Shown here in pieces: positions 5,869 through 21,263 of a stretch of DNA of 64,000 nucleotides. The stretch comes from Sphingorhabdus lacus (GTDB taxonomy: Bacteria > Pseudomonadota > Alphaproteobacteria > Sphingomonadales > Sphingomonadaceae): positions 1,984,001 through 2,048,000 of the forward strand of contig NZ_CP035733.1 in the NCBI RefSeq assembly GCF_009768975.1, given 5' to 3'. The translations under genes and the position numbers were made by a program. The stretch's first letter is position 1. Each line of letters begins with the position of its first letter. The notes beneath the pieces were generated by a model. It did no database searches. It had not been told where the DNA came from and saw only the letters and a list, made by a program, of their open reading frames with translations.

Positions 5869-7101
5869 TTAGTGCCGCTCACTTTGCAGGATACGCTGTA
5901 CCTCATCCGCCCAAGCATCCAAAGCAGATCGCTTTTCAGACGAAAAACTGTAGCGCTGGTAGACGCCAACAATGCCTGCTTGGCTTCCGGACACATGGTT
6001 TAATACGGCTTCCGTCACCTCCAACCTTACACCAATTCTTTGCAAGCCGGTTGCTACAGTGCGTCTCAGATCGTGAAGTCGCCATTCATCTACATTCCCA
6101 AGCTTTTTCTCAACAGCCGACCGAAGCCGCGCCTGAACTTTGCTGAACCCGCTGGCGCCGTTATGAGGACTAGATTTGGCAGGAAAGAGCTTTGAACTCG
6201 TGCCTGTTCGCTCCAGCTTTTCGATGATATTCAGCGCAAAATCGGAAAGCGGCACAATGTGGGTTTTGCCATTTTTTGCTCTCGCGGCAGGAATTGTCCA
6301 AATGCGTTGCTTTGTGTCGAATTCGACCCATTCCGCGCAGTACACCTCGTTCCTTCGCTGACCGGTCAAAATCAAAAGTCTGATTGCCGAGGTCCAAGGC
6401 TCGTGCTCATTGCCCAGGGCATCCCACAATACTGCCAATTCACGATCCGAAAGCACACGGTCGCGAGCCTTTGGCGCAGGCGGCCGACCAGCATCGCGAC
6501 AAGGGTTTGAATCTAAGCGATCAAGACGCGGCAGCGCCCATGTGTAAAACGCGCTGAGCTGGGCGCAAACATTTCGGGCTTGGACCGGCGCCTTACGTGC
6601 AACTTTATCCACCAGCCGCGTCACGTCCCCTCGCGTCACACTGTCTGCCAAGCGATCACCAATTTCAGGCAAAATGTTTCGGTTAAATATTCTCTCGGTT
6701 TCATCAATACGTCGGCGACCAGCTTTGAAGGCAAGATAGTCAGGCAACATGTTCCGAACAGTTAAGGCAGCAACCTGCCTGCTCTTTTTTGTCTCTTTGC
6801 TGGGGTCGCTGCCTGCCTCGATATCGTTGATCATTTGCCGAGCTTTGCGGCGGGCATCGACCAACCCGCATCGAGGTCCAAAGCGACCAATCGTGATGTT
6901 TCGTGACTGACCGCCAACTCGTTTCCGCAAAATGAATGTTTTTGCGCCCGATGCACCTACTCGCAACCTTAACCCAGGGACGGTTTGGTCTGCATACTCC
7001 ACTTGACCATGGAGCGGCTTCGCCAAGCCCTTAATCTTGGCGTCCGTGAGCCCAATTTTTAAGCGCTTCTGAAACTCCAAATCTTGCCTCTGACCGCTCA
7101 T
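5869..7101 (-). CDS. Tyrosine recombinase integrase of element 1 (P4 type)
   Basis: 410 aa, the usual length for P4-type integrases. The N-terminal DUF4102-like arm-binding domain spans about residues 15-100 (VPGLRLRVGASGAKTFIL, ITIGRFG). A SAM-like core-binding domain covers about 115-200. The catalytic domain has Arg249 (TGQRRNE), Lys near 277, His343 and Arg346 (HDLRRT), His369 (LNHVSG) and the nucleophile Tyr381 (VYQRY). All catalytic positions are present, so it is probably active. It integrates and excises DNA at a tRNA 3' end; the matching site lies 142 bp upstream of its start, at 7244-7293. Confidence 0.93.
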   Translation of the reverse strand: MSGQRQDLEFQKRLKIGLTDAKIKGLAKPLHGQVEYADQTVPGLRLRVGASGAKTFILRKRVGGQSRNITIGRFGPRCGLVDARRKARQMINDIEAGSDPSKETKKSRQVAALTVRNMLPDYLAFKAGRRRIDETERIFNRNILPEIGDRLADSVTRGDVTRLVDKVARKAPVQARNVCAQLSAFYTWALPRLDRLDSNPCRDAGRPPAPKARDRVLSDRELAVLWDALGNEHEPWTSAIRLLILTGQRRNEVYCAEWVEFDTKQRIWTIPAARAKNGKTHIVPLSDFALNIIEKLERTGTSSKLFPAKSSPHNGASGFSKVQARLRSAVEKKLGNVDEWRLHDLRRTVATGLQRIGVRLEVTEAVLNHVSGSQAGIVGVYQRYSFSSEKRSALDAWADEVQRILQSERH

Positions 7102-7243: not shown

Positions 7244-7293
7244 AACTCTTAATCAGCGGGTCGTGGGTTCGAACCCCTCAGCGTCTACCATTT
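7244..7293 (+). repeat. att site: tRNA-Lys(CTT) 3'-half fragment, copy 1
   Basis: A 50-bp sequence identical to 21416-21465. It begins at the anticodon loop (CTCTTAA, anticodon CTT), includes the T-loop GGTTCGAACC, and ends with ACCA and three T residues. The 5' half of a tRNA is absent, so this is an attachment-site remnant, not a tRNA gene. It marks the junction of elements 1 and 2. The flanks 7102-7243 and 7294-7436 hold no recognisable gene and are AT-rich. Confidence 0.9.
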
Positions 7294-7436
7294 TTTGTTT
7301 ATTTATCATATATTTGTAAGCTAAAAATCGTTATCGCGTACGATGTCGGTGTCTCGAACACCGCATAGATACCGTAAATACTTTTGCCGCGTTGAGCGAA
7401 CTCCTATACAACAACTCAAGTGTAAGGGGGTTGAGA

Positions 7437-8198
7437 ATGAAGTACGACGATAAAGAGGTTCGATCGCTTTCAGATTTGATTGAATTTCTGAAGGAAGACC
7501 TGCCTAAAGGACAGCCCACTTGGTACAGAGGTCAACGCGACGCCTCATGGGATCTTCAGCCAAACATTACTCGACATGGTGGGGTTGATGCCGAAAGGGC
7601 GTTATTTAAGCGTTTTAAGCAAAATGCGTTCTCTCACGTACCTTCACGTCCTGCGACAGAGTGGGAGTGGCTTTTTATTATGCAGCATCACGGTCTCCCC
7701 ACGCGTTTGCTTGATTGGACTGAAAGCGCTCTTGTTGGTTTGTACTTTGCGTTGGATGGCGACAGTCCGGTAGATCCAAAGTGTGCGGCGGCTCTCTGGG
7801 CCATGGATCCCATTGGTCTAAACAGGGCTTCCAAATGGGCAGGTGCTCATGAAGCAGATATACCAGGTTTTGACGATGATGAGGATTTGAAATCCTACCT
7901 GCCCTCACAATTTCTGCGCACAGGTTTTGCATTGGAACCCATTGCAGCTATTGCTGCTCGCAACAATGCGCGGATACAAGTCCAGCAAGGTGTGTTCACG
8001 CTACATCATAAAAATCTCGATCCCCTTAATGAGGGAGCTCGGTTAGATCATATTTGGCGTTATATCATACCTGGCGACGTGGTCGCCGAATTGCGAACAG
8101 GCTTAGAAATGCTTAACGTCAATCGCCTATCTCTTTTTCCAGAATTGCAAAACGTGGCAAACCACGCTCGCGACCAAATTATCGGTGGTAATCAATGA
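7437..8198 (+). CDS. FRG-domain protein
   Basis: 253 aa from the ATG at 7437, which sits about 8 bases behind AAGGGGG; an upstream in-frame start at 7392 has no comparable ribosome site. FRG-domain hallmarks are present: WYRGQ at residues 29-33, QHHGLPTRLLDWT at about 83-95, ALVGLYFAL just after, and VQQGVFTLHH in the C-terminal third. The family is widespread in bacteria, often in defence islands, but its biochemical activity is not established. The stop overlaps the next start (ATGA), so the FRG and DUF262 proteins are probably made together. Codon use is AT-rich compared with the flanking chromosome, consistent with transfer. Confidence 0.85.
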   Translation: MKYDDKEVRSLSDLIEFLKEDLPKGQPTWYRGQRDASWDLQPNITRHGGVDAERALFKRFKQNAFSHVPSRPATEWEWLFIMQHHGLPTRLLDWTESALVGLYFALDGDSPVDPKCAAALWAMDPIGLNRASKWAGAHEADIPGFDDDEDLKSYLPSQFLRTGFALEPIAAIAARNNARIQVQQGVFTLHHKNLDPLNEGARLDHIWRYIIPGDVVAELRTGLEMLNVNRLSLFPELQNVANHARDQIIGGNQ

Positions 8199-9241
8199 AA
8201 AGCTTTCACATTCACGAGATGCCAGATTCTTCTGTACTGGCTCTTAACGATATTCGAGAGTCTGTAGAGCTGTCACCTGATTATCAGCGTCCAGGTGGCG
8301 TTTGGTCACTCAAAAATAAGCAATTGTTCATCGACTCCCTTTTAAACGGTTACGATATTCCCAAATTGTATTTTCATTATTTGACCGGTGTCCATGCACG
8401 CGCGGGGAAAGATTACGCGATCATCGACGGCCGCCAACGGCTAGAAACAATCTGGGAATTCATCGACGGAAGTTTTGCGCTTTCCACTGATTTCAAGTTT
8501 TACGAAAATGAAGAATATAACGCAGCTGGGATGACCTTTTCGGATATCGAAAAGGAATATCCGCGGTTGCTAATAAAGCTCCATGCCCGCAGCTTATCAG
8601 TGATGGTCGTGACGGCCGACGACCTCGATTTCATCGAGGACATGTTTTCTCGACTGAATGAGGCTGTTCCACTGAACGCGGCTGAGAAGCGCAATGCCTT
8701 TGGTGGAGCATTACCTAACATCATTCGAAATTTAGCTGGCCACAGATTCCTCACGGACAAAGTTGCCTTCCCCCCAACCCGCTATCGACACTACGATGTG
8801 GCAGCAAAGCTACTCATTGAGGAATACTATCCGACTGTCGTTGATACGAAAAAAGCTCGATTAGATGATTTCGTCAAATCAAATCGGCTTCGACCAGAAA
8901 GCGCTTTTTCGCAAGTTGTCGAACGCACTAAGGCAACTTTAGAAGATATGACAGCCGTGTTCGCAAACAATGACCCACTGCTAAAATCAAGTGGTATGGT
9001 TGTTGTTTATTACGTGCTTTTCTCAAAACACCCGCAAACAAACTTAACTCGACAAAAGCTACTAAACTTTGAGCGCGCGCGAGAAGCAAACCGTGATGCC
9101 TTTGCGTCCGAAGACACAAGCATCAATTTTGATTGGATCGAGTACGACGAGCTTGCTCGATCATCAAACGACGCGGCTTCAATTCGCAGTCGGGTCGACA
9201 CGCTAATAACCTATCTCAGTTCTGAGGAATCTATAGCTTGA
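8195..9241 (+). CDS. DUF262 (GmrS-type N-terminal domain) protein
   Basis: 348 aa, starting inside the FRG stop codon. The DUF262 signature is clear: YQRPGGVW near residue 30, SLLNGYDIPKLYF, and DGRQRLETI at residues 78-86, which corresponds to the DGQQR motif used for nucleotide binding and hydrolysis in GmrSD- and BrxU-like enzymes. The C-terminal half (about residues 190-348) is helical and has no visible DUF1524/HNH nuclease motif, so this is not a complete single-chain type IV restriction enzyme. The coupled FRG protein may supply the effector. A role in defence is inferred from domain and location. Confidence 0.85.
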   Translation: MKSFHIHEMPDSSVLALNDIRESVELSPDYQRPGGVWSLKNKQLFIDSLLNGYDIPKLYFHYLTGVHARAGKDYAIIDGRQRLETIWEFIDGSFALSTDFKFYENEEYNAAGMTFSDIEKEYPRLLIKLHARSLSVMVVTADDLDFIEDMFSRLNEAVPLNAAEKRNAFGGALPNIIRNLAGHRFLTDKVAFPPTRYRHYDVAAKLLIEEYYPTVVDTKKARLDDFVKSNRLRPESAFSQVVERTKATLEDMTAVFANNDPLLKSSGMVVVYYVLFSKHPQTNLTRQKLLNFERAREANRDAFASEDTSINFDWIEYDELARSSNDAASIRSRVDTLITYLSSEESIA

Positions 9242-9273
9242 GCTGCCAAATGTTTGATGCAACTGTGTGAGGT

Positions 9274-9951
9274 ATGCCATCTAAAAAACAAAGCTCTTTA
9301 GACACTGACTTTAACCCTTTCGATCCGCTTGCTGTTGAGAACGTAGGTGTAACTCTTGCGGTTGAATTGCTCGAACAGCCCCTTGTACAAATGCCTCCCC
9401 AAACCCCTTTCCGAGGTGCAGGTATTTATGCATTGTATTATCGCGGGGCACACCCTGCTTATGCTGACTTAATCGCTTATGACGCCGGGAGAGCCAAGTA
9501 TCCCGTTTACATAGGGAAGGCTGCCGGAGAGAGCGCGAAGCAAGGGTTCAATCCTAAGTCCAGTTCGAAACAAAAATTGTTTGACCGCATAGACCAACAC
9601 GCCAAATCAATTGATTCAGTGCAAAACCTCTCGATAGAGGATTTTTCGTGTCGTTACCTGGTATTAAACGACGCCTATATTGCTCTCGCAGAGTCAGTGA
9701 TGATACGGGTTTTTAGGCCACCTTGGAACGGCATGAGTTTTGGTAGTAAAGTTGTGGGTGTGCACCGGATGGGTGGCAAGCCACCCTTGTGGGATTCATT
9801 ACATCCCGGGAGAGGCGGTCGCCCACAAGGTTCAACTGAACGAGCGACTGTGGCTGCTGACTTGATCGCAAAGCGAGTCGCCGAACTCAATGATCAAATT
9901 CACGATCCGGTTTTAAAGCGGATGCATGATCGAATTACAAATTTCATTTGA
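9274..9951 (+). CDS. Eco29kI-family restriction endonuclease (GIY-YIG)
   Basis: 225 aa. The GIY-YIG motifs are GIYALYY at residues 50-56 and YIGK at 79-82. The remaining catalytic layout of the Eco29kI family can be placed: Arg105 and His109 in DRIDQHA, Glu140 in ALAESV, and Asn152 in PPWNG. The protein should cut DNA as a type II enzyme; Eco29kI itself recognises CCGCGG, but the specificity of this homologue cannot be read from the sequence. The gene converges on the cytosine methyltransferase and the two reading frames overlap by 8 bases at their ends, the expected partner arrangement. Confidence 0.88.
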   Translation: MPSKKQSSLDTDFNPFDPLAVENVGVTLAVELLEQPLVQMPPQTPFRGAGIYALYYRGAHPAYADLIAYDAGRAKYPVYIGKAAGESAKQGFNPKSSSKQKLFDRIDQHAKSIDSVQNLSIEDFSCRYLVLNDAYIALAESVMIRVFRPPWNGMSFGSKVVGVHRMGGKPPLWDSLHPGRGGRPQGSTERATVAADLIAKRVAELNDQIHDPVLKRMHDRITNFI

Positions 9952-11092
9952 TAGATTTCAAAACACTCTCGATTACAGTCTTAGCTAGATCTGAAGGGAC
10001 AGCATTACCTAGTTGCCGCATGGCTTCAGACCACGATCCGTGTAGAGCCATTTCATCTGGAAAAGTTTGTAGTCGAGCAGATTCGCGCACCGTGAAATAT
10101 CTAACAGTACCATCTAGGCGGCGAAGCATATTTTCTCCGCCGGGCACACCGTGCACTCCGGCCTTTAGAGTTTTTGCCGGCTCGTCTAATGGACTTCCAG
10201 TATGCCCTGGATAAGATCGCGCCCCGGGTTGGAACCGGTGATTTAATATCTGCTTGCAACGTTCTGGATCTCTTTCGGGATCGGGTAAGTCAGCTAAAGC
10301 TTCTCGCACTGTTCTCCATGCTTTAATCCCAGCTCGAACCTTGCTCCGCGTAGGCAATTTATTTGGCGCAGCACCCTGCCGTTTCTTGTCGACCCCGTTG
10401 CGTTCCCAATAATCTCCCGTTATCCACTTTTCGACGGCTAATTGCTCACGCGAGTGCGTAGACTTAGGGAAATGCCAAGCAGCTTTCAGATCGCTTCTTA
10501 TGCCAACGAAGAAAACCCGCTCTCGTCTCTGCGGGACGCCAAAGTCAGCAGCGTTCAAAACCTCCGTTAAGACCTGATAGCAAAGCCCGCGGTCCGCGTT
10601 AGCAGATTCAAAGTCTTCTAACCGACGAAGATGATCGGTCCAATCTTCCTCTTGAGATTGCACAATTTCCGGGTGCTTTAGTTGCAACCGAATATATTCA
10701 AAATAATTTCTAAATGTTGTCCTTGTGAGCCCTTTTACATTTTCAAATACGAACGCTTTCGGTTGCAATTCCCGGACTGCGCGCACGGCTTCTGGAAACA
10801 TATCCCTAGAGTCGGACGATGACATATGACGGCCACCAAGTGAAAATGGCTGACATGGTGGGCCGCCGGTTACTACGTCGATTTTGGAACCAATTTGGTC
10901 ATAACGAAATTGGCGCACATCGCATTCGTGCAGTGGCCAGCGGGAAAAGGGAGCGATCCCAGCACGCGCATTTTGTCTGATTGTTTCGCAAGCCCATTTG
11001 TCCCAGTCAACAACGGCCCTAGGTTTAAGGCCTGCCTTACTGCCGCCGAGTGCCATGCCGCCCGCACCCACAAATAATTCTACGGCGTTCAT
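9944..11092 (-). CDS. DNA (cytosine-5-)-methyltransferase of the restriction-modification system
   Basis: 382 aa from the ATG at 11092 behind GAGAGG; a start 12 codons earlier (11128) lacks a ribosome site and precedes the usual N-terminus. Motif I is LFVGAGGM (6-13), motif IV GGPPCQPFS with the catalytic Cys80, motif VI ENVKGL (117-122), motif VIII QRRERVFFVG, motifs IX-X RESARLQTFP and RQLGNAVP near the C-terminus. A target-recognition region of about 100 residues lies between motifs VIII and IX. It methylates C5 of cytosine at the host copy of the restriction site, protecting it from the convergent Eco29kI-like nuclease. Confidence 0.93.
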   Translation of the reverse strand: MNAVELFVGAGGMALGGSKAGLKPRAVVDWDKWACETIRQNARAGIAPFSRWPLHECDVRQFRYDQIGSKIDVVTGGPPCQPFSLGGRHMSSSDSRDMFPEAVRAVRELQPKAFVFENVKGLTRTTFRNYFEYIRLQLKHPEIVQSQEEDWTDHLRRLEDFESANADRGLCYQVLTEVLNAADFGVPQRRERVFFVGIRSDLKAAWHFPKSTHSREQLAVEKWITGDYWERNGVDKKRQGAAPNKLPTRSKVRAGIKAWRTVREALADLPDPERDPERCKQILNHRFQPGARSYPGHTGSPLDEPAKTLKAGVHGVPGGENMLRRLDGTVRYFTVRESARLQTFPDEMALHGSWSEAMRQLGNAVPSDLAKTVIESVLKSIK

Positions 11093-11325
11093 ATCGAAAC
11101 CTCTCGTTAATCTAATCGCGTATGGCACACAACTTTAGGGAACAAAATAGCAACTCAGCTCTACCCGCAATATTTTTAATGGGAAGAAATCGCGCCGGCT
11201 CGAAATGGTTAAAGCCTTTCGTTCGACTTAAGGAAAAGGATGCCGAGCGTGAAATACAAAATCAACGAAATCCGTCATAAAACCGCACAATTGGGGTTGC
11301 GAGGCCTCCATTCAGTGCCTCTTGA

Positions 11326-15694: not shown

Positions 15695-16354
15695 TCAGAC
15701 ACACCGTTCCATGCTCATCCCATCACTCAAGATCGTGCGAGTCCTTAGGGCATGACGTTGAGCCCGATCCGCAAGTTCCTGTGCTCCTGGTGCAAAGGCG
15801 CTAGTAGTTGGATCGCCTTCCCTGAATTGAGCTTGTTGTGCAGCAGTTGAAGCACTCCAATCATCAAAAGACATCGGTGCTGGCATAAGCATTACCCCGA
15901 ATTTCTTACCCTCATCTCGCTTCTGGTTGGCATCGTCGCGATCACGATAGCCATGGCGCGCCTTGAGCAAGAACATGGCCGCAGCACTGTCTCCTCGCCG
16001 GGCATTGGCTGTGAGCAGGTCGCATAACTCTGCCTCTTCTAGATCCTTGCGTGCAGCAACAGCATCCATCAACACCTTGTCATCGGTGATCAGCCGACGC
16101 AGCGTGGTGACGTTGACACCTAATGCAACGGCGATCTCTGCACGCGGGTAACCACCCAAGAGTGCAACACTGACAGCATCTCGTTCCTCGATTGTAAGGA
16201 CAGTCTTGTTCCATGGGATTGGCTTGAGACTAACCCGCGTTTGCACAGGCTCATCAAGAGGATCGAGGCCACGCGGTTTGGCTACAGTTGCCCTTTCGGC
16301 AGCATGCGCTTGCCGATTGAGAATGGACTTTTCGCTGCGTGTCAGTTTTGTCAT
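15695..16354 (-). CDS. HTH protein resembling a terminase small subunit
   Basis: 219 aa from the ATG at 16354 (MTKLTRSEK); the frame extends upstream, but that part is not protein-like. Residues about 60-90 form a helix-turn-helix (GGYPRAEIAVALGVNVTTLRRLI). They are followed by a helical segment (AEAELCDLLTANARRGDSA..., then MFLLKARHGYRDRD) that resembles the C-terminal half of phage small terminase or Nu1-like proteins. No large terminase is present. In satellites, small-terminase homologues can redirect packaging of a helper phage; here this is a hypothesis. A plain transcription regulator is the alternative. Confidence 0.55.
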   Translation of the reverse strand: MTKLTRSEKSILNRQAHAAERATVAKPRGLDPLDEPVQTRVSLKPIPWNKTVLTIEERDAVSVALLGGYPRAEIAVALGVNVTTLRRLITDDKVLMDAVAARKDLEEAELCDLLTANARRGDSAAAMFLLKARHGYRDRDDANQKRDEGKKFGVMLMPAPMSFDDWSASTAAQQAQFREGDPTTSAFAPGAQELADRAQRHALRTRTILSDGMSMERCV

Positions 16355-16596
16355 GCGGGCGTAATTGCACGCGGGTATTGATCCAAGAAACCAGCATAGC
16401 CGGTACTGTGATCGGTGCTTGGGAGTACAACCAGCGGTTAAGCCGTTGATCGGCAAAGCTTGGATTGAGCCATATCCCCTAATAGATACTCAGTTGGTCT
16501 GATTTTGGTTGTGCATGGGTCTGGATTTTGAAGACTAACCCTATCGTTATTCAGCCGCCGCTCCTATGTGGCCACCACAAAAGAATTGGAGACTAC

Positions 16597-16900: not shown

Positions 16901-16938
16901 AGGACCCGCTCTGATCGATGAATCGTTGCGCGGGTCCT
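16901..16938. other. Hairpin AGGACCCGC/GCGGGTCCT in gap 16849-17233
   Basis: A 9-bp perfect stem with a 20-base loop lies 52 bases after the 16848 stop. It may end that transcript, though there is no T-run. A smaller palindrome (AGGGTT TG AACCCT) lies just before it. The rest of the 385-bp gap contains an alternating purine-pyrimidine tract (around 16949-16970), the palindrome GTCTTGACAAGAC and the TCTAATC repeat cluster. Confidence 0.5.
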
Positions 16939-17075
16939 CTAGTATTGGCGCACGCACGCGTGCGCGCGCGTTTTAGAAATTAAGCAACAGGCATATCAGC
17001 GCCGGTTGTCAATTTGCCTTCGACACATCGGGCCAGTTTCAGTCACTTCCAGCGTGTCTTGACAAGACGACACCC

Positions 17076-17168
17076 TCTAATCTGAATTTAAAAAAAAGTA
17101 GCTGTTTCTAATCATCTCTAATCCCTTTCCTGCTCAATAACGTGAAATATGGATTAGAAACGATTAGA
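17076..17168. repeat. Cluster of five TCTAATC/GATTAGA repeats; candidate origin or operator
   Basis: TCTAATC occurs at 17076-17082, 17107-17113 and 17117-17123, and its complement GATTAGA at 17152-17158 and 17162-17168. The last two copies in each orientation are exactly 10 bp apart, about one helical turn, so bound proteins would lie on the same face. A run of A residues (around 17089-17097) lies between copies 1 and 2. The cluster is 66 bp beyond the 3' end of the primase-helicase gene. A further GATTAGA, on the minus strand, overlaps the primase ribosome site (19609-19615). P4-type satellites replicate from iterons bound by the primase protein; a similar function here is inferred. Confidence 0.6.
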
Positions 17169-17233
17169 AAACGAGCATATGCAAGAATAGTTGGCTCGAT
17201 CATGTCTTGTCCCCGGACACAGCGTGTCTTGGG

Positions 17234-19606
17234 TCAGTGAGCTCGAAATAGGTACTGACGCTCACGCTCAGCAGGTCCTATATTTGACCACTTTTCATCG
17301 TTGATCGGCGAATACAAAGTGATTGATGCACCATTGGTATTTCGCGAGTGCTTTTTATAGCCGACCGCGTTCAACCATTTACGGATCGCAAGCAGAAGCT
17401 GTTCGTCTGTCGCATCGAGCCTATCGAGGTGGTTTTCTTTGACAAGCGTAAGCACGTCGTCTGCCGCAAACAGATCGAGTTTTTTTATGACATTCTCAAG
17501 CTTCGAATAGTCCAATACATCATTACCATCGGCATGAAAGCTATCACGTATCAGCTTACGCTTGGCCTCAGTCATCGGCGGGTCTTCATCAAAGCGAACA
17601 GACCCGACACCTGCAATGCTTACGCCATCGTCGGACATCACAATCCGCTCACGCGCCCAAACATTTATCAACCACCAACGGACAGCAGCCATATCCTCCT
17701 TACTGGAGTAATGCTTTGCAAGCTGCTGGTTGTGCCTGCCTTTCTCATCAATCTCTTCAGGGCATGGCTGTAAATAGCAAATGCGTCGATCATCATCAGG
17801 GCAGTAAAACTTATAGCCGGGGTTGCGATGAACGATATAATTCGTACCATTCGGCACACGTACTTGGCTTTCTCGCTGCATCGGGCGGACAGCAATAAAG
17901 TCGTCAGTGATCGGCGCCTTCATATTTTCATACGCGGCCTTTGCTTCTTTCCACGTACCAAACCCAATTTCCTCACCAAATAAATTTGCCGACGAGACCT
18001 GCCAGTTATTGTATTTATCCAATATCTGGGTCACACCAAAGGTTCCGCAATTGCTCCAGCCAAAAAGAGTATTGAAGCCATTTTTCATCTGGCCTTTGCC
18101 AATACCTTGCGCACTTTCGATTACCAGTTGCCAGCGCACTTTACGACCGGGTTCCATACAACGAGCTGCCCAATAATCGAGCAGTATCGACTGCTGGTGC
18201 TTATCGTCGGGAAATAGACGCTCTACTTCGTTCTCGAACCACTCATGATTGCCTTCGACAGGCGCGAGAGTAGTGTCATACCAGACATTAAGCGCGTGAT
18301 CCTCATGCGTGCCCATATCGATTGCTACAAAGCGCTCTCGCCCCGGGAACCATGCAGCCATCTTCACTGAGCGCAGATTTATTCCCGCCTTACCTGTCTT
18401 GATAGCAGTCAGCAGCGAACCTTTACCGCCCGATCTAGCCCAACCGGGGCCATTTTCATTCTCGAACACGCGATCATCGAAGACTTCACCTGTTTCGACG
18501 TTTATGCGGTTGCCAGTAGCTCGGTCATACACAAAAGTTGCATTTAGCCAGTTTGCATAGTCTTCAAGGCTGGCGGCGGCTTCCAATTTGCGAAGCTTGC
18601 CTTTTTCAGCTTTCACTTCCCGCGCCTTCTGCGCGTTAGCCTGTCGCTTTGCCTTCGTATCGCTGACTGCATGAAGGAGTAAAGGTTCGTCCAATGGGTC
18701 AACGTCGTCGAAATCATTCGCTGCTTCTTCAAAATCAGGCTTAATCAAGTGCGCAACACCCGCGTCTGACAAATGTTTATAAAGAGTACCCGCGGTAATA
18801 CGCACTGTAGCATCTGAACTGAGACCATCCCAACGACGAGCTATCACCTCTGCTTGATCTGCATATGCAGAGTCACCAATCGACCATAAGACGAATTCGT
18901 CACAACCTGCTCCAGAGGTTGCGTCATGACAGGCCATCATCAACTCCAGCCATCTGTCATGGTCACCGCTATAAATTGAAACATCCAGATGCTCTAATGC
19001 ATCCGCCAGCCATTCGGGTGATTTATTACCGCTGCCACAAGCGGAAGATGCGACATTTTTTTCACCAAGCGCAATCAACTCGAATGGGGCAAATGGCAGT
19101 CCCAAATCGTCTTCAAGCGGATCAATATCCCGAATTACAACATATTCCCGACCCGTATCAGGATGACATGAGCCGGGGGCCACGACTTGGCGGCCAATGC
19201 ATTTGAGTTCGACGCCGGGGTAGCCTTCTTTGCTGAGGTCATTCTTCAAAGGACCTACGCCAACGGGTAAACGCATATAAACGTGCAACCCGCCTGAGCC
19301 AGTTTGAACGGTTGGAAAAGCAGAAGCATCGATAGCTAAATCGGCCTGCAAGCGCTGCCATGAATCATCGCCACCATTGCGAGGATCAACATCGACAACA
19401 AGGTCATATGCACCAAGCACGACCCCTACATTCTTACCCTCAAGCAATCGCTTTTCAGCTTCATCGGCGTCGAACCTTACTCTTAAATCGGTAGTCCAGT
19501 TTTTGTGAACTGGCCGCTTACCTGCAAGGGCGATAAAGTCGGCACTGCGAAGGAATGTTGGCTGCTTGGCAGCGATTTTTGACGTAATTCTAGTGTCATC
19601 AGACAT
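17234..19606 (-). CDS. Primase-polymerase/helicase replication protein
   Basis: 790 aa. The N-terminal bifunctional primase-polymerase domain has VGVVLGAYDLVVDVD, with acidic residues at 72 and 74, and QTGSGGLHVYM with His108, then IGRQVVAPGSCHP (about 137-149). A PriCT-like helical domain spans about 200-290. A charged linker (about 310-345) leads to a DUF5906-like superfamily-3 ATPase with Walker A ESAQGIGKGQ (497-506) and an acidic segment (LFGEEIGFG) after it. This is the usual replication protein of satellites and plasmids: it makes primers and unwinds the origin. The start ATG follows AGGATTAGACT, where the AGGA ribosome site coincides with a GATTAGA repeat. Confidence 0.88.
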   Translation of the reverse strand: MSDDTRITSKIAAKQPTFLRSADFIALAGKRPVHKNWTTDLRVRFDADEAEKRLLEGKNVGVVLGAYDLVVDVDPRNGGDDSWQRLQADLAIDASAFPTVQTGSGGLHVYMRLPVGVGPLKNDLSKEGYPGVELKCIGRQVVAPGSCHPDTGREYVVIRDIDPLEDDLGLPFAPFELIALGEKNVASSACGSGNKSPEWLADALEHLDVSIYSGDHDRWLELMMACHDATSGAGCDEFVLWSIGDSAYADQAEVIARRWDGLSSDATVRITAGTLYKHLSDAGVAHLIKPDFEEAANDFDDVDPLDEPLLLHAVSDTKAKRQANAQKAREVKAEKGKLRKLEAAASLEDYANWLNATFVYDRATGNRINVETGEVFDDRVFENENGPGWARSGGKGSLLTAIKTGKAGINLRSVKMAAWFPGRERFVAIDMGTHEDHALNVWYDTTLAPVEGNHEWFENEVERLFPDDKHQQSILLDYWAARCMEPGRKVRWQLVIESAQGIGKGQMKNGFNTLFGWSNCGTFGVTQILDKYNNWQVSSANLFGEEIGFGTWKEAKAAYENMKAPITDDFIAVRPMQRESQVRVPNGTNYIVHRNPGYKFYCPDDDRRICYLQPCPEEIDEKGRHNQQLAKHYSSKEDMAAVRWWLINVWARERIVMSDDGVSIAGVGSVRFDEDPPMTEAKRKLIRDSFHADGNDVLDYSKLENVIKKLDLFAADDVLTLVKENHLDRLDATDEQLLLAIRKWLNAVGYKKHSRNTNGASITLYSPINDEKWSNIGPAERERQYLFRAH

Positions 19607-19674
19607 AGTCTAATCCTCTTAGTTAAGTTGCAATGTCTGTCTGGCGGATGAGCCCAATCCATTCCGGCTCATAC

Positions 19675-19744: not shown

Positions 19745-19969
19745 TTAATTGGTCACAAAGGCGTCTAGATCGTCTCGATGGTAGCGGACCAAGCGATCTT
19801 GGATGATGTGATATTTGGGGCCCTGTCCCCTCGCCCTCCAGTTCCTAAGGGTTCCCGAAGTCGAGCCGAGATAGGCAGCGGCTGCGTCCGGATCCAACCA
19901 AGGGGTCGAAATTTGATTTAGCTCTTCCCGCACAACGGTGCGGATCGCGTCAATTGTGAGTTCTTGCAT
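19745..19969 (-). CDS. AlpA/excisionase-like MerR-type HTH protein
   Basis: 74 aa from the ATG at 19969, seven bases after GGAG; the longer frame from 20080 runs through the terminator hairpin and is rejected. The C-terminal 50 residues form a winged HTH of the helix-turn-helix 17 type (WLDPDAAAAYLGSTSGTLRNW, then GPKYHIIQDRLVRYHRDDL). Such proteins act as excisionases or as activators of integrase in satellites (AlpA in P4-like elements). It lies between the integrase terminator and the primase gene, which suits a lysogeny/excision switch. Confidence 0.75.
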   Translation of the reverse strand: MQELTIDAIRTVVREELNQISTPWLDPDAAAAYLGSTSGTLRNWRARGQGPKYHIIQDRLVRYHRDDLDAFVTN

Positions 19970-19981
19970 TTGCCAGCTCCA

Positions 19982-20014
19982 GAAAAAGTAAGGCCGGGCA
20001 AATTGCCCGGCCTT
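19982..20014 (-). terminator. Intrinsic terminator of the integrase gene
   Basis: On the minus strand a 10-bp GC-rich stem AAGGCCGGGC/GCCCGGCCTT with a 5-base loop is followed by ACTTTTTCT. It lies 52 bp after the integrase stop and overlaps the leader of the downstream regulator gene, so some read-through may be controlled here. Confidence 0.85.
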
Positions 20015-20066
20015 AGTTGGGGACTTACCCACTCTTGCTAGTTCAGGTTGATGGAACAGGAACCCA

Positions 20067-21263
20067 TCATTCAGGAGCACTCAGCGCTAATTTGAAACCC
20101 AAAGGATCGACGTAGTCAGTTTCCCTCACAGCTTGAATTTTGGGCACTGCGTGGGAAAAGATGAAGTCCTCCAGTGCCTGAGTGTGAACCCGCAGGTGTT
20201 CGACAAGATGTGAAGCATGTACGTAGCCACCTGAGGCTCCCGGTAGCTTCTGGCCGAGTAGCAGCGCACTTTCTGCATAGGGCACTCCAGAAGCAATATA
20301 GAGCGTCCTGGCATGGTGGCGATATTCATGTGGACTGGGCAGATTATCCTCCCTTGGTTCCATGACGTGGCCGCATTTGCTGCTTGCTGACGGCCACAAC
20401 CATTCACTGCCGAGCGGTTCGTCAGTATCCATCCTCACGCCGAGAATCTGGGCGAGCCTCCGACCCATTGGCAGCTGCAAAGCCTCATCACTTGTCTTCA
20501 TGTGGGTAAGCGTCAGGATCGCCTTTTCGACATCTACCTCGGATCTTTTTACCTGAAGGATCGAAGATCGGCGTGCGCCAGTCAGCAACATGGCAACATG
20601 CAAATCGCGCCGCATCGGTGCCAGCTTCATCACCTTCTGCCACCAATCGCTAATGTCCAACGGCGCGACCTTACGACGCTTCGTTGATGGAACGTGCAAG
20701 GCAGCTACCGGATTGCCAGTCAATGTCTCATCGATGCGCATGGCTGTATTCACGACTGCCCGAAGCGTCCGCATGACACTCGCAGCAGTTGTCTCGCCGT
20801 GCTTGCGCTTCAACTCCGCATACAGGTCACGCACCATTTGACGCGAGATGTCGGCAATAGCTTTCTTTCTCCAATGCTTCAGATAATGATCAAGGTGGTA
20901 GCGATAGCCTTCCTCTGTACGAGGGCGATGCGTCTTTTCCTCAAGGTGGGCATCCAATGCCTTTTCGAGGGTAATACCTGTTTCGGCAGGGCCTTCAGTC
21001 GGGTCAATGCCTGACTGTATCTGAGACATGATGGACTTCGCTTTATTGCGGGCATCGCGAAGGCCAATCCTGTCCACCCGATCAATTTTGACCCGGACAG
21101 TTCGGACATGGCGGCCATTGCGCCTTACGTCGCCTTGGCAAGAATATGTCTTTGTGGTTTTGTGGCAAACAACCATCAACCCCTTCACTTGGGCATCTCG
21201 ATGTATACCTGATCCCAAGGGCATCTCCCGGATGCGGGCTTCAGTTAGATTGGATACGGACAT
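20067..21263 (-). CDS. Tyrosine recombinase integrase of element 2
   Basis: 398 aa. The N-terminal arm-binding domain (about 5-85) is DUF4102-like, the core-binding domain covers about 97-190, and the catalytic domain follows. Catalytic residues that can be placed are Arg231 (TGARRSS), Lys256 (THMKTSD), His312 and Arg315 (SPHEYRH), and the nucleophile Tyr347 (GGYVH). The usual third-motif His appears to be Gln338 (LLLGQKLPG), a substitution seen in some recombinases. It lies 152 bp from the att copy at 21416. It shares only general family features with the element 1 integrase, so the two elements use different recombinases for one site. Confidence 0.9.
   Translation of the reverse strand: MSVSNLTEARIREMPLGSGIHRDAQVKGLMVVCHKTTKTYSCQGDVRRNGRHVRTVRVKIDRVDRIGLRDARNKAKSIMSQIQSGIDPTEGPAETGITLEKALDAHLEEKTHRPRTEEGYRYHLDHYLKHWRKKAIADISRQMVRDLYAELKRKHGETTAASVMRTLRAVVNTAMRIDETLTGNPVAALHVPSTKRRKVAPLDISDWWQKVMKLAPMRRDLHVAMLLTGARRSSILQVKRSEVDVEKAILTLTHMKTSDEALQLPMGRRLAQILGVRMDTDEPLGSEWLWPSASSKCGHVMEPREDNLPSPHEYRHHARTLYIASGVPYAESALLLGQKLPGASGGYVHASHLVEHLRVHTQALEDFIFSHAVPKIQAVRETDYVDPLGFKLALSAPE

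Follow-up and report, generated by a model that had tools for sequence, protein, structure and literature searches.

The window analysed here, a stretch of 64,000 nucleotides from Sphingorhabdus lacus, carries a tRNA-Lys-bounded island of 14.2 kb with the following main features (L numbers denote homologous loci):

7244..7293 (+), left att repeat, 50 bp, tRNA-Lys 3' end
15695..16456 (-), HTH protein, weak match to a terminase small subunit; 53% identity over 150 residues with its L030 counterpart
17234..19606 (-), primase-helicase (putative initiator) with Prim-Pol, PriCT_2, DUF5906/SF3-like helicase, C-terminal helices and beta-hairpin
19745..20080 (-), AlpA/excisionase-like HTH_17 protein
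20067..21263 (-), tyrosine integrase; 76% identity with that of L030
21416..21465 (+), right att repeat, identical 50 bp

The att repeats comprise the tRNA-Lys 3' end only; the intact tRNA-Lys gene is found ~234 kb further left. Integrase, HTH_17 protein and primase are all encoded on the minus strand. The protein at 15695..16456 gives a partial match to phrog_309 (E 2.3e-8) as well as HTH-like matches. Defence-like cargo occupies positions 7392-11128 and includes an FRG-like protein (read from the sequence), a DUF262-like protein (NsnA/PD-T4-2 matches), a type II restriction enzyme and a cytosine methyltransferase. Another tyrosine-integrase-like gene (5869-7101) is located directly outside the left att repeat, and the island is probably a tandem insertion next to a larger element.

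A repeat array is found 66-158 nt 3' of the primase-helicase stop codon. It consists of five copies of the heptamer TCTAATC/GATTAGA (the inner repeat) in 93 bp (17076-17168), together with an A/T-rich stretch:

17076..17082 (+), inner repeat on the far side of the A/T-rich stretch
17080..17099, A/T-rich stretch (85% A+T) including A8 (~17090-17097), candidate melting site
17107..17113 (+), inner repeat, 10 bp from the 17117 copy; extended form TTTCTAATC from 17105
17117..17123 (+), inner repeat; TCTCTAATC, one mismatch relative to the extended form
17152..17158 (-), inner repeat, 10 bp from the 17162 copy; TTTCTAATC reaches 17160
17162..17168 (-), inner repeat; extended form TTTCTAATC reaches 17170
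17105-17124 and 17151-17170, arms of a 20-nt inverted repeat built from the two pairs (26-nt spacer, 90% complementary)

An earlier, sequence-only reading of this DNA had described three forward and two reverse copies, a 10-bp spacing in each close pair and an A-tract between. The number and orientation of the copies as well as the spacing of both close pairs are confirmed by position. The A-tract is present as A8; it does not lie within a close pair but between the copies at 17076 and 17107. The extended form TTTCTAATC is exact in three of the five copies and has one mismatch in a fourth.

The clustering greatly exceeds chance, and the array is unique in the genome. Between 17040 and 17240 the heptamer is observed 5 times against an expectation of 0.043, and the genome-wide count that the same reading had proposed yields 71 copies in 3.46 Mb, with the 10-bp-spaced pair (TCTAATC-N3-TCTAATC) occurring at this array and nowhere else in the genome. 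The best of 60 dinucleotide-shuffled windows held 4 copies of any 7-mer per 100 bp (5 here), and none of 2000 intergenic shuffles gave more than 3 copies of one 7-mer. Shuffling of both the window and the intergenic stretch rules out chance clustering. Plasmid records contained no match to the putative origin DNA or to the primase, and a search of RNA families returned sub-threshold matches only.

The inverted pairs could in principle represent an intrinsic transcription terminator that ends the primase transcript. As RNA, the strand encoding the primase forms a hairpin of 20 bp (-29 kcal/mol, z -5.9) and has T8 downstream of it, and L031 behaves similarly (z -5.9). The stem is A/T-rich, however, the T-run is several bases away from it, and a terminator scan lists nothing at the array; in L030 the folding is barely above that of its shuffles (z -1.6). 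A terminator would also not explain why the arms contain a tandem duplication, why there is a fifth copy and why other relatives have their arrays arranged differently. We regard a terminator as very improbable.

Homologous loci were gathered from viral contigs and from genomes within the same family, order and class. Each 320-bp segment of a locus was scored blindly for the best 9-mer copies, with one mismatch allowed. Ten homologues have a similar helicase half (L015, L019, L020, L021, L022, L023, L024, L030, L031 and L128). In seven of them (L128 included) the 320 bp directly 3' of the gene is the sole most repeat-rich of ~85 segments; in L031 and L023 this segment is tied for best, and in L021, which has no array, it is ordinary. 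L016 and L017 carry no array 3' of the gene. Judged from the sequence, they appear to have another C-terminal half, an ATPase of RecA type. The placement of the origin appears to depend on the type of helicase. Within the viral set, 15 of 76 loci (including L128) score at least 6 downstream versus 2 upstream, several of these contigs being near-duplicates; the scores of tailed-phage homologues are often ordinary. In several of the phage contigs L051-L067, the primase gene is followed by weak repeats of the GGCTTAGAT type, which may be degenerate origins of this kind.

The repeat word differs among loci while the position 3' of the gene is kept: TTTCTAATC in this island, TTTCTATG in L030, TTTCTAAG in L031, TGTCTCCCG in L015, ACCGCTTT in L019 and L128, GGTAGGTC in L020, GGTAGACAG in L022 and L024, and TGACACTTT in L023. 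The closest relatives (51-53% identical) retain the inverted TTTCTA arrangement. In L031, TTTCTAAG/TTTCTATG is found at +100 and +110 (forward) and at +149 and +159 (reverse), compared with +64, +74, +111 and +121 here, i.e. the same geometry of two 10-bp pairs, inverted and ~38 bp apart. L030 has a simpler inverted pair, and the putative origins of L030, L031 and this island can be aligned. The sequence-only reading called the array "helically phased"; same-strand spacing in other relatives is often 8-9 or 11-12 bp, so that 10-bp phasing is no general rule.

If the C-terminal half of the primase-helicase recognises the repeats, the repeat word is predicted to go with this half and not with the N-terminal one. 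Recombinant proteins among the relatives allow the two halves to be separated. The Prim-Pol half of the present protein is 60-61% identical to those of L015 and L048; their helicase half is only 20-21% identical, and their repeats are different. L030 and L031 are 43-47% identical to the present protein in the Prim-Pol half and 55-56% in the helicase half, and their repeats share the TTTCTA core with those of this island. When L030 and L031 are compared with L128 and L023, the Prim-Pol half is 67-70% identical, the helicase half 20-21%, and the words are unrelated. Partial Mantel tests on 14 loci point the same way (repeat similarity against the C half with the N half controlled for, r=0.29, p=0.013; against the N half with the C half controlled for, r=0.05, p=0.31), with an effect that is modest and loci that are related to one another. 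Judged from these sequences, the repeat word tracks the C-terminal half of the primase-helicase and not the Prim-Pol half.

The primase-helicase comprises 790 residues. A structure model built from 17 sequences (mean pLDDT 59.7) is good for the Prim-Pol, moderate for the helicase and poor for the last 130 residues. The best structural match of the helicase half is the NrS-1 phage primase-polymerase (6k9c, 6a9w; Z 20.2 for its helicase), a phage replication protein that the Prim-Pol half matches as well. It is followed by the SaPI5 primase-helicase (7ola, 7om0; Z 16.4 over 224 residues, 3.0 A) and PriRep1 (7pds; Z 12.3). Similarity to the latter two extends to the sequence profile, which reaches 7ola at E 1.8e-5 and also 7pds; identity in the aligned part amounts to ~10-13% only, and, unlike them, the present protein carries a Prim-Pol of the pRN1/NrS-1 fold with PriCT_2. 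At the C-terminus, the order of helices followed by a hairpin in the model would fit a winged helix, with low confidence. No viral relative was found with the C-terminal half alone as query.

Given its position, its recurrence in relatives and a word that tracks the C-terminal half, the array is very probably the core of the island's replication origin, with the primase-helicase as the initiator that would read TTTCTAATC through its C-terminal half. The iteron origin proposed by the sequence-only reading is supported by these three observations; binding by the primase is a step that we infer. According to the mechanism we propose, the primase-helicase encoded immediately upstream of the array would act as initiator, its C-terminal half (the SF3-like helicase and the domain after it) recognising the TTTCTAATC repeats. 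Initiator molecules would assemble on the two inverted pairs, the adjoining A/T-rich stretch would melt and allow the helicase to load, and the Prim-Pol half would lay primers for a host or helper polymerase. The relatives form a natural series, in which the word changes with the initiator's C-terminal half and the Prim-Pol half is freely exchanged, and which makes the origin-recognition rule of a large primase-helicase family testable.

The core is flanked by a second class of repeats (CAAGACA; 3 copies versus 0.05 expected around the array) and, further 3', by a noncoding block:

16920..16974, divergent version of the GCGCGCGC block that relatives retain 3' of their putative origins; a 9-bp inverted repeat adjoins
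17055..17061 (-), outer repeat CAAGACACG, aligns with CAAGACAGGG in L030
17203..17209 (-), outer repeat CAAGACATG
17225..17231 (-), outer repeat CAAGACACG, adjoins the primase stop

The outer CAAGACA repeats are perhaps extra initiator sites or primer-start sites. A different assignment would make them the initiator's iterons and the TCTAATC pairs accessory elements, read by another protein or acting structurally as a cruciform. CAAGACA is indeed little changed among this island, L030 and L031, L048, L022, L024 and L015 have single-class arrays with a similar core, AGACAGG, and the TTTCTA class is seen only in the clade of this island. The inner repeats are nevertheless the stronger cluster both here and in L031, and CAAGACA-like words accompany Prim-Pol halves and helicase halves that differ considerably, so neither protein half is clearly tracked by the outer class. 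We consider this assignment rather unlikely. A little more plausible, though still tentative, is a division between separate readers in which the helicase half would read the TTTCTAATC pairs and the CAAGACA repeats would be primer-start sites or sites of a second protein. If so, origin and priming specificity would evolve separately through swapped protein halves.

A sixth copy of the heptamer is present at the primase start, as the sequence-only reading had noted:

19609..19615 (+), sixth copy of the heptamer, immediately before the primase ATG; lacks conservation and is probably incidental

That reading had also proposed that the primase represses its own expression through this copy. Its nearest base lies 3 nt 5' of the ATG, and it matches the 7-bp core only, without the extended TTT. 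The island outside the array holds 5 heptamers where 1.42 are expected, a number attained in 1.5% of shuffles, which makes a single extra copy weak evidence. When the relatives' own repeat words were sought at their primase starts, isolated weak matches were found, none of them convincing. Taken together, the core-only match, the relatives and the island background do not support autorepression. The same heptamers bear on the possibility that the array serves as operator of a regulator from the island (the AlpA-like or an RHH protein) controlling genes on both sides. Single heptamers do directly precede the primase start and lie close to the starts of two further genes (~11111, ~15099), in line with the mild enrichment of the island outside the array. 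The array, however, follows the 3' end of the primase gene and contains no promoter-like site that we could find; relatives do not carry their own repeat at the primase start, and the repeat goes with the helicase half of the primase. We regard an operator function of the array as very improbable.

The layout corresponds closely to that published for PICI origins, in which repeats lie immediately 3' of the primase/initiator gene (SaPIs, EcCICFT073 and other Gram-negative PICIs; PMC6092414). The C-terminal domain of SaPI Rep reads its iterons (PMC7581432). As in PICI origins, the repeats of the present island are located directly 3' of the primase/initiator gene, on both strands and beside an A/T-rich stretch; the same arrangement around an A/T-rich stretch is clear in L015, L019, L022 and L024. 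As in Gram-negative PICIs, the putative origin is found directly 3' of the initiator gene here and likewise in nine of the ten same-type relatives, and integrase, AlpA-like regulator and primase-initiator run in one direction. The gene content (integrase, AlpA-like HTH, fused primase-initiator) is also that of PICIs, with matching order and direction, and the gene with the weak TerS-like match takes the corresponding place. In Gram-negative PICIs a terminase small subunit gene is optional, the attachment site is one that prophages do not use, and induction and packaging depend on a helper phage. Unlike PICI origins, this island has other repeat words and two repeat classes, and its A8 stretch lies between the two pairs and a lone copy. 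Unlike PICIs, the present islands lie within one alphaproteobacterial family, Citromicrobium being a named relative, and have no known helper. The element fits a PICI-like rather than a PICI designation, and it extends the PICI-type origin layout to islands of one alphaproteobacterial family.

Other systems show partial similarity. The alpha protein of satellite phage P4, which acts with ori and crr, likewise combines primase, helicase and origin recognition in one protein and is associated with short repeats. P4 differs in its repeat word and in having two separate cis sites; its marker genes are psu, delta and sid. The present island encodes a primase-helicase fusion of the alpha type close to repeats, a character that is not specific to P4-type elements because it is common to PICIs. 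A RepA/Rep_3-type initiator, as expected beside the iterons of an iteron plasmid, does not adjoin the array; the adjoining protein is Prim-Pol/SF3-like.

The noncoding block (AAAAGGCGCGCGCGCGTGCATAATGCCCGC...CCCACTGATCGGCA, GCGCGCGC-rich) is located 300-430 nt 3' of the primase in L030, L031, L015, L022, L023 and L128, and is common to islands whose helicase halves are unrelated. It is a candidate packaging site or origin element. The GCGCGCGC block had no match in viral contigs, so that a helper cos site could not be demonstrated. In L017, a strong CATCAGTTC array is found upstream of the gene, ~600-900 nt 5' of the primase start, and adjoins the conserved GC block. The exact pattern of the GCGCGCGC block occurs in 2 of 298 genomes, in both cases at such islands.
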